Positions 13,917 to 16,132 of a DNA stretch of 16,132 bases are shown one piece after another. The notes beneath the pieces were generated by a model. It was not told where the DNA came from. It did not search any database and was given only the letters and a program-made list of their open reading frames with translations. Each line of letters opens with the position of its first letter. The first letter of the stretch is position 1. Source of the DNA: an uncultured Arenimonas sp. (GTDB lineage Bacteria > Pseudomonadota > Gammaproteobacteria > Xanthomonadales > Xanthomonadaceae); the NCBI GenBank assembly GCA_946480565.1, contig CAMLKR010000040.1:1-16132 (forward strand), read 5' to 3'. The position numbers and the translations under genes are program-made.

Positions 13917-15854
13917 TCAGGACTTCGCCGCTTCCCAGCCGCAGGCCTTGCCTTCGTTCTGCTTGACCAGCCATTCCTGCAGCGGCGCGAAGTACTCCAG
14001 CACCGCCGAGCCGTCCATCTGCTCGCCGCCGGTCAGCTCCTTCAGGGTCTGCTGCCAGGGCTGCGAGGCGCCGCGCTCCATCATCGCCCAGTAGCGCTTG
14101 CCGGCTTCCGGGTTGTTGGCGAAGTTGCAGGTGTACAGCGGACCCTGGTGGCCGGCCGCGTCGCACAGCGACTTGTAGAACTGGAACTGCAGCACGTGCG
14201 AGAGGAAGTAGCGCGTGTAGGGCGTATTGCCCGGCACGTGGTACTTGGCGCCGGCGTCGAAGAACTCCTCGCCGCGCGGCGACACCGGGGCCACGCCCTG
14301 GTACTTGGCCTTCAGGTCCCACCAGGCCTGGTTGTACTGGTCCGGCGTGATCGAACCGTCGAACACGCCCCAGCGCCAGCGGTCGATCATCAGGCCGAAG
14401 GGCAGGAACGACACCTTCGCCAGCGCCATGCGCATCTGCGAGTTGATCACGGCTTCCTCGCTGACCGCCGGCTTGTCGACCAGGCCGATCGAGGCCAGGT
14501 ATTCCGGGGTCATCGACAGCACGATGGTGTCGCCGATGGCCTCGTGGAAGCCGTCGTGCGCGCCGTTCTGGAACACCGGCGGGTGCTGCTTGTAGGCCAG
14601 GTAGTAATAGATGTGGCCGAGCTCGTGGTAGATCGTGGTCAGCTCTTCCTCGTTGGGCTTGATGCACATCTTCATGCGCACTTCGCCCTCGGTGTTCATC
14701 GGCCAGGCGCTGGCGTGGCAGACCACGTCGCGGTCGCGCGGCTGCACCAGCATCGAGTCGGTGTAGAAGCTCTCCGGCAGCGCCGGCATGCCCAGGCCGG
14801 TGTAGAAGCTCTCGGCCAGCTTGGTCATGCGGGTGGCCATTTCCAGGTCGGCCTGGCGCTCGATCTCGACCTGCTGGGACGCGGTGAGGTTGCGCATGCC
14901 GCCGGCCTTGGACACCAGCTCGGCCTGGATCGCGTCGCGCTGCTTCTTCAACGCACCGGTCACGTCCAGGCTGCCGACGCCCTCGTAAGGCTGCAGCAGC
15001 GGCCAGAGGTTGCCCCAGTCCTGCTGCCAGAGGTTGCCGGTGAGGTGGGCCGGGATCATGCCGTTGACCGAACCCTGCTCGCCGTACTTCTCCACCAGCT
15101 TCTCGCGGGTGTAGCACTGCAGCTGTTCGTACAGAGGCTGCACCTGGCCCCAGAGGCGGTCGGCCTCGGCCTGGAAGTCGGCGGCCGGCATGTCGTAACC
15201 CGCGCGCCAGACTTCGCCGGTGTTGGCGAAGCCCATTTCCTTGGCGCCTTCGTTGGTCAGTTCGACGAAGCGCTGGTAGTCCTTGCGCATCGGCACGGCG
15301 ATGGAATGCCAGCCTTCCCAGGCCGCCTTCATCTCGTCGTAGCTGCTGGTGCCGGTGTTGGCGAGGATCTCGGACACCTGGCCGATGTCCTTGCAGTCCT
15401 GGCCGTCCACGCACCATTTGCCGGCGCCGTAGGTCGCGCCCAGGCGGCTGGTGATCTCGGTCAGTTCCTTGAGCTTGGCCGGGTCGCGCGGGGCGGGCAG
15501 GGAAGCGCCGACCTTCATCAGGTGCAGGGCGCGCGCGGTGTCGGCGCTCAGGCCTTCGGTCGGGTAGGTCTTGGCCTGCTCGATGAAGGCGTTGTTGAGG
15601 GCGAGGAAGCGCTCGTTGGCCGCCGCTTCGACGCGCTGGCTGTCGGCATTGATGTAGGTCGCGCCCAGCCAGGCGGCGGAGGTCAGCTCCGGGGTGATTT
15701 CCTTGGCGGTCTTGTTGACGCGGGCGACGAATTCGTCGGCCGATTCCTTCGGCGCGTCGGCGGCGCTCTCGGTCTGGTCGGCGGGCTTGCAGGCGGACAG
15801 GGCCAGCAGGCTGGCGGAGATGGCGAGCGCCAGCAGGGCGCGTTGGGATTTCAC
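13917..15854 (-). CDS. M2-family (ACE-like) zinc peptidyl-dipeptidase, lipoprotein, 645 residues
   Basis: A bacterial relative of angiotensin-converting enzyme that should remove C-terminal dipeptides. The zinc site is HELGH (410-414) plus Glu438 in FHEAIGD. The spacing from the first His to this Glu is 28 residues, the same as His383 to Glu411 in human testis ACE. Other ACE active-site residues are matched in order: His380 in CHASAW, Lys537, His539, Tyr546 and Tyr549 (equivalents of His353, Lys511, His513, Tyr520 and Tyr523), and Arg548, the chloride-site residue Arg522. The N-terminus is a lipoprotein signal with lipobox LSAC (Cys22). The next residue is Lys, so the protein should go on to the outer membrane, facing the periplasm. 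The start is GTG at 15854, with GGAG 8 bases upstream. An ACE-like peptidase is known from Xanthomonas. It is monocistronic, ending at a strong terminator. Confidence 0.96.
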
Positions 15855-15936: not shown

Positions 15937-16020
15937 GTGGCGGGTTTGCCGCCTCAGTTGCTCGCTGGTGCCGGATCGCTTTCGTTGGTGGGCCAGGGTG
16001 CCGGGATCGTTCGAGGCGGT

Positions 16021-16132
16021 AGGCCGCCGCACGTGAGGTCTCTCTGCGGACGCCGTGAATACGTCCATGTAGGCTCTTCGAAAACGTCCATGTTTTCGAG
16101 ACCGCAGAAAAAGACCTCACGCACGACGGCCT
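16021..16132 (-). repeat. Structured intergenic element: 29-bp inverted repeat enclosing two hairpins with the same loop
   Basis: The outer arms, 16021-16049 and 16102-16132, pair over 29 bp with one 2-base bulge (16108-16109). All four non-Watson-Crick positions (16027/16126, 16030/16123, 16031/16122, 16042/16111) are G-U if the minus strand is transcribed but A-C on the plus strand, so the fold belongs to minus-strand RNA. Inside are two hairpins that both show loop ATGGAC on the minus strand: a strong one (8-bp stem, 16078-16085 with 16092-16099) and a weaker one (TAC/GTA around 16063-16068). They come from a 10-base direct repeat, ACGTCCATGT, at 16061-16070 and 16084-16093. The pattern resembles dispersed stem-loop repeats of Xanthomonadaceae genomes (from memory). 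The outer pairing reaches the window edge and may continue. No T-run follows, so it is not a standard terminator. Confidence 0.8.

Follow-up and report, generated by a model that had tools for sequence, protein, structure and literature searches.

Sponge RNAs of the CsrB/RsmZ type carry several GGA hairpins that are thought to bind CsrA/RsmA; CsrB has CAGGA(U/C/A)G repeats, and the recognition consensus of RsmA/CsrA is longer than its ANGGA core. A palindromic sequence of Yersinia, YPAL, was reportedly described by De Gregorio in 2006. The excerpts available for this 168-nt repeat (RU-2/YPAL), the sequence of which was printed by Delihas in 2007, present it as mobile, with filled and empty chromosomal sites reported (PMC2759123, PMC2229807), and the reviews, in the same partial form, add that it might affect the stability of upstream transcripts; CsrA is not named in these excerpts. 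TwoAYGGAY (RF01731) appears in the excerpts of its original description as a probable RNA, not cis-regulatory, from the human gut, gammaproteobacteria and Clostridiales (Weinberg 2010, PMC2864571), and an excerpt of a later paper proposes, on motif grounds, that it binds CsrA (Gardner and Eldai 2014, PMC4333381). Among the papers listed by searches of open PubMed Central, where subscription papers are mostly outside, we found none that links CsrA/RsmA to YPAL/RU-2 or to a dispersed repeat, and none that joins YPAL and TwoAYGGAY with Ysr224 (RF02770, a Yersinia sRNA), reads such repeats as CsrA sites genome-wide or describes outward pairs.

The repeat reported here lies at the end of a window, that is, the whole 16,132-nt stretch of Arenimonas DNA that was analysed. 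It is not wholly new, its kind being known in pieces. We consider it likely that it is a dispersed gammaproteobacterial intergenic repeat, selected as RNA, and a putative two-site RsmA/CsrA ligand that would act as a decoy or as a local tether.

The unit in the window and its copies

The unit is a structured, repeated element with strand-biased wobbles and conserved loops. A preliminary description of the window had taken it for a repeat, and copies do exist: BLAST (E<=1) gave 37 matches in A. daejeonensis and 42 in A. terrae, both strands and partial matches counted, which group into 21 and 30 places, and two further genomes gave 4 and 3 matches. These Arenimonas places together with the window yielded 65 units, 64 of which were aligned (alignment A1, which is without the copy at locus L129, missed by nhmmer, and without L147, a cut unit among the 65). 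A covariance model, R1, was built from the 64 units, the window unit itself among them. The unit and its surroundings in the window comprise:

16021..16132, minus (GGA) strand: whole unit, a three-way junction; R1 match of 109.5 bits, E 1.3e-24
16102..16129, minus: outer stem, 5' arm (columns 4-31 of A1)
16024..16049, minus: outer stem, 3' arm (columns 84-111 of A1 minus two gap columns)
16076..16101, minus: hairpin 1, 10 consensus pairs, loop ATGGAC at 16086-16091 (alignment, covariation)
16052..16074, minus: hairpin 2, 3+3 consensus pairs, bulge TTCAC, loop ATGGAC at 16063-16068
16000..16009, plus: REP-like end GCCGGGATCG adjoining the unit (pattern match)
15970-15978: variant REP-like end GCCGGATCG (pattern match)
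13917..15854, minus: M2 peptidase gene, downstream of the unit on the GGA strand (ORF list, Peptidase_M2 match)

The element is the last 112 bases of the window, which ends at the element's edge. Folding of positions 16010-16132 gave -70.3 kcal/mol (z -8.69) on the minus strand and -56.0 kcal/mol (z -4.61) on the plus strand, with 0 of 200 shuffles equally stable in each case, and the R1 score on the plus strand at the same place was 35.1 bits. The three-way-junction-like architecture first proposed, an outer stem with two hairpins, was retained, but the stem was given as 29 bp and the consensus has 28 pairs, two of which fall at a 2-base gap in the window copy as aligned in A1. Both hairpins present the ATGGAC loop on the minus strand, 23 nt apart, and the four outer-stem wobbles pointed out earlier (16126/16027, 16123/16030, 16122/16031 and 16111/16042) are G-U on this strand only, being A-C on the plus strand. 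As to the second hairpin, covariation backs the form originally drawn (TAC/GTA inside GCC/GGC), but the single-sequence optimum differs from it: in that fold GGACGU pairs with GCGUCC, and the second GGA of the window is hidden.

The unit was correctly placed upstream of the M2 peptidase gene and reading toward it (Peptidase_M2 E 3e-196; GTG start at 15854, 166 nt away), and the encoded protein shares 95% identity with its A. daejeonensis and A. terrae counterparts. The REP-like end motif of the window has further occurrences elsewhere in it (pattern match). At gathering score Rfam gave no match in the window, and weaker Rfam matches to microRNA precursors were taken as chance matches of long hairpins; carriage on a plasmid or phage was set aside, as the plasmid and phage collections gave no match.

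Beyond these copies, R1 matches were found in at least 38 of 149 genomes of the family (E-value limit 0.01), at least 65 of 369 genomes of the class (0.001) and at least 30 of 398 genomes of the phylum sample (1e-4), as well as in at least 14 of 29 genomes reached through named loci (0.001; some places in this search were counted twice, once per strand). Since the number of candidates scored per genome was capped (at 25, 10, 9 and 129 in the family, class, phylum and named-loci searches, respectively), matches per genome are minimum values. The 14 genomes are eight Arenimonas, Thermomonas beijingensis and all five Shewanella searched, so a limit to Xanthomonadaceae is too narrow. Among the candidates scored, no R1 match was obtained for the other 15 genomes, which include A. 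maotaiensis, an Arenimonas MAG, Thermomonas flagellata, Silanimonas lenta, two Luteimonas, two Pseudoxanthomonas, two Chitinophaga-type genomes and a Myxococcales MAG.

Covariation, strand bias and the loop sequences

Changes in the stems compensate, as had been anticipated. In A1 (64 units from two Arenimonas genomes and the window), 22 of the 44 pairs have a double change, and the double-changed cells number 247 vs 64 in shuffles, with 0 of 500 shuffles as high; 99.4% of cells pair, a value that falls to 40-50% when the partners are slid by 1-3 columns. Further pair types were not above shuffles in this alignment (358 of 500 as high). The class-wide set of 33 rows, which still includes the one low-scoring row of alignment A3, shows compensatory change in 40 of 44 pairs, including all 28 pairs of the outer stem, with 563 double-changed cells vs 154 in shuffles. 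The C-G pairs closing the two loops are invariant in the class-wide rows with letters (32/32 and 33/33), and in hairpin 1 one pair of columns lacks pairing in 22 of 32 rows. The outer stem can vary almost freely, and the junction is kept by compensatory change on one strand. The bias of the wobbles also extends beyond the window, with ratios of G-U to A-C cells of 188:2, 23:1, 23:3 and 122:7 in four sets, some of these cells being common to related copies. Compensatory change and minus-strand-biased wobbles together uphold the original reading of selection on an RNA.

The letters of the loops are kept as well. Two copies of CANGGANG occur in 150 of 158 units, and all four letters occur at each N (pattern count); thus the two C-A-N-G-G-A-N-G loops are conserved and variable at the N positions. 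The commonest first N is T in Arenimonas and G in the class set, with the fixed letters unchanged, and Shewanella and Arenimonas units have their loops in common but not their outer stems. Opposite-strand overlaps, three low-scoring A2 rows and one A3 row were removed for the loop, gene-context and wobble counts. Background DNA contains 358 occurrences of CANGGANG in 666,592 bases, with 31 pairs at a spacing of 15-40 nt; a pair by itself is thus not uncommon, and this background may include copies of the element; moreover, as R1 was trained on such loops and A2-A4 were fitted to R1, part of the loop and pair conservation leans to the model. GAGC at the junction and UUYAC-GGCG on the 3' side (columns 58-61 and 73-83; about 16050-16075 in the window) are conserved as well, beyond the needs of a CsrA site.

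Judged by its letters, the C-ANGGAN-G loop is that of the RsmA/CsrA recognition hairpin, ANGGA being given as the core of RsmA/CsrA sites in an excerpt of the literature (PMC9788540). CsrA/RsmA, which fits the loop sequence, is now a candidate for the one protein that was suggested to bind both twin loops; the binding itself is our inference, and a strong one, namely that the RNA of the unit would bind RsmA/CsrA. We hypothesize that the GGA strand is transcribed and that the unit functions as a decoy or a tether. If a copy were transcribed from this strand, one RsmA/CsrA dimer could clamp both loops; many copies would then jointly form a decoy for RsmA/CsrA, and single copies might be tethers that alter the stability or translation of the host RNA. 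Two features count against a CsrA site: the single-sequence fold that hides the second GGA of the window, and the conserved junction and bulge letters, which exceed what such a site needs.

The distribution of csrA was also compared with that of the element, the overlap being read from the tables by eye. A csrA match is present in 9 of 10 related genomes, and the exception, the MAG G004, carries the element. In the phylum sample csrA was found in 30 of 30 element-bearing genomes vs 190 of 368 others, a contrast confounded by kinship; in the class sample the figures are 60 of 65 vs 253 of 304, a weak contrast. The five element-bearing genomes of the class sample with no csrA match (G161, G221, G252, G347 and G493) may be incomplete. 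Three Arenimonas CsrA proteins and that of Pseudoxanthomonas kalamensis, the four that were read, all keep Arg44. Multiple csrA matches (9, 8 and 7) were observed in the element-bearing genomes G637, G448 and G492.

Paired architecture, turnover and rival explanations

All 14 loci of the two Arenimonas genomes from which a pair of units was extracted have these units pointing outward. The close pairs made of one TwoAYGGAY and one R1 unit in Shewanella sp. UCD-KL21 are outward in 4 of 4 cases or, with weaker matches added, in 5 of 6, the one inward-facing pair lying at 158524-159049 of contig C24 (G526). Arrays of four to seven units in the same direction were seen in Shewanella (L248 2603-5271, L249 2034-3080 and L250 1953-2766); the first of these, in S. 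inventionis, holds seven units within 2.7 kb. An 11-mer, GGCAGGAYGCC, occurs 56 times in 28 of the 52 Arenimonas loci scanned, two of the 52 being the same place and one of the matches, in L113, looking coding. It marks hairpins of a second module of about 100-150 nt (L155, L105, L127 and others) which, where its sequence was read, has a long compensated-looking stem of its own and reads outward from the first unit; these hairpins recall the repeats of CsrB. REP-like ends flank many Arenimonas copies, and the type GCCGGGATCGTTC..GGCGATAGGCCGCC was seen alone at an empty site (L270 ~1361-1411) and in short arrays beside filled sites. This short end may be the insertion target.

The places are largely shared between the two species, since 20 of the 21 in A. 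daejeonensis have at least one flank in common with an element place of A. terrae, with paired and single forms alternating at individual sites. For ten A. terrae places no counterpart was matched in A. daejeonensis, and the three of these that were examined are all filled vs empty sites, with lengths of ~640 vs 20 bp (upstream of the M2 peptidase gene), 460 vs 50 and 560 vs 70; one empty site retains a solo REP-like end, and the element borders at the sites seen are blurred by such ends. As one species can have a copy at a site that is empty in its relative, the copies would seem to have spread as non-autonomous mobile repeats. The gap upstream of the M2 peptidase gene is a shared hot spot, with other, unrelated hairpin repeats in further Arenimonas-type genomes (L002, L005, L006 and L019). 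Within-genome identity is 0.946 in A. daejeonensis and 0.891 in A. terrae; copies are thus more alike within A. daejeonensis only, which suggests homogenisation in that one genome, and homogenisation in both was rejected, as the A. terrae value is not above the between-genome value.

With respect to genes, which were called roughly by a codon-usage method, 4 of 157 units lie inside a called frame and 126 are flanked by a called gene on either side. Of these 126, taken relative to the GGA strand, 34 are tandem sense, 57 tandem antisense, 28 between convergent genes and 7 between divergent ones, and the small number between divergent genes agrees with a location at 3' ends. In tandem genes antisense placement of the GGA strand outnumbers sense placement, which disfavours a plain sense 3'-UTR sponge; partner modules unseen by the model may supply the other strand.

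Taking into consideration this putative mobility, one may ask whether RNA has any role. A DNA-level mobile hairpin, recognised in the single-stranded form of one strand by a transposase, of the Y1/RAYT type or another, for which the loops are signals, would explain the dispersed intergenic copies, the inverted pairs, the REP-like ends and the filled and empty sites, and G-T wobble in single-stranded DNA could yield the same strand bias. Y1_Tnp genes are indeed present in 8 of the 10 genomes searched, at 24 places, but the four of these loci that were examined are without the unit; the RAYT link suggested at the outset was not borne out there, and RAYT as the carrier is not favoured on the basis of these four. 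L163 contains one 19-nt match to a module-C query. Against a signal read in DNA also speak the letters, which are fixed where the CsrA hairpin is fixed and vary at its two Ns, and the comparison of Shewanella with Arenimonas, which share loops but not outer stems. We regard this explanation as unlikely.

An RNA that works locally and without CsrA would also suit several of the observations. Its stem would protect or process mRNA, as a 3'-end stabiliser or an RNase III substrate, a role suggested for YPAL, in keeping with the influence on upstream transcripts mentioned in reviews, and shown for other repeats; its loops would serve another protein or the fold. The avoidance of divergent gene gaps (7 of 126, vs 28 convergent) agrees with this, as do the conserved junction and bulge letters that CsrA leaves unexplained, but a stabilising stem needs no twin ANGGAN loops with invariant C-G closure, and we judge it quite unlikely. 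Copies of a former mobile element could finally be neutral debris, kept alike by recombination within genomes and with no present function: the identity of copies at orthologous sites barely exceeds that of random pairs taken between the species (0.913 vs 0.907, p 0.13). Debris, however, gives no strand bias of wobbles, and the loops and closing pairs are kept across genomes whose outer stems have no common sequence, which makes it highly improbable.

Wider reading and comparison with known systems

Extending the two-site RsmA/CsrA ligand to the whole group, we put forward tentatively, as a possibility that is more doubtful than the ligand itself, that a mobile RNA repeat is now a distributed, genome-wide CsrA/RsmA titration system in many Gammaproteobacteria, of which YPAL, TwoAYGGAY and Ysr224 would be pieces. 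A genome would have up to tens of copies, each with twin sites and frequently in outward pairs, which would buffer or tune the regulator alongside dedicated CsrB/RsmZ genes or in their place. The repeat reported here brings together in one family a mobile repeat of Yersinia, an Rfam motif that was an orphan and a Yersinia sRNA annotation, and it offers a single testable function for a repeat present in at least 65 of 369 sampled genomes of the class. If the copies are transcribed and bound by CsrA, how much of a global regulator is free would depend in part on their number and activity; a repeat of selfish type would then feed into post-transcriptional control, and annotations of these repeats as REP or MITE debris would need revision.

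The Yersinia repeat is matched by the window repeat family in core sequence and fold. RU-2 compared with a profile of 32 class-wide units, which may include kin of Yersinia, gave E 4e-13, the best of 500 shuffles giving E 4.8. According to the excerpts of its descriptions, YPAL/RU-2 resembles the window repeat in its tens of intergenic copies, its two ANGGAN hairpins and its junction and 3' letters, and its filled and empty sites have their counterpart at three of three sites here. Target-site duplication of 3-26 bp is a trait of YPAL/RU-2 itself. The Yersinia repeat differs in its outer stem and in being described, in those excerpts, as a single 168-nt unit with no outward composites. That such repeats have no assigned function, as stated earlier, is out of date for the relatives, given the CsrA binding proposed for TwoAYGGAY and the RNA-stability role suggested for YPAL.

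TwoAYGGAY is defined by two AYGGAY terminal loops in a multistem junction, which the window also has (both AUGGAC, in a fold backed by covariation), and its above-cut-off copies adjoin R1 units in Shewanella. RF01731 (gathering cut-off 43 bits) gave no match to the window even at E<=10, and at E<=0.01 nothing in A. daejeonensis or A. terrae; the class-wide copy L194 reached 40.4 bits, under the cut-off, and 8 of 20 genomes have matches, above the cut-off in 4. Luteimonas cucumeris (G080), a genome with no R1 match, shows 14 weak TwoAYGGAY matches, none above the cut-off. Ysr224, with a cut-off of 70 bits, matched the strand opposite GGA, with 36.0 bits (E 7.8e-6) in L194 and a weak 18.5 bits in the window; unlike the GGA strand here, it is the TCC strand that is annotated as RNA.

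REP/BIME sequences with their RAYT, and MITEs, are likewise short intergenic palindromic repeats with many copies and inverted pairs. In REP systems a cognate RAYT gene is flanked by the repeat; in the four loci examined here no RAYT lies beside the unit. As a three-way junction of 112 nt, with loops that are fixed and stems that are free, the window repeat differs from all of these. Finally, CsrB and RsmZ are dedicated single genes, whereas the window repeat consists of many dispersed two-site units.
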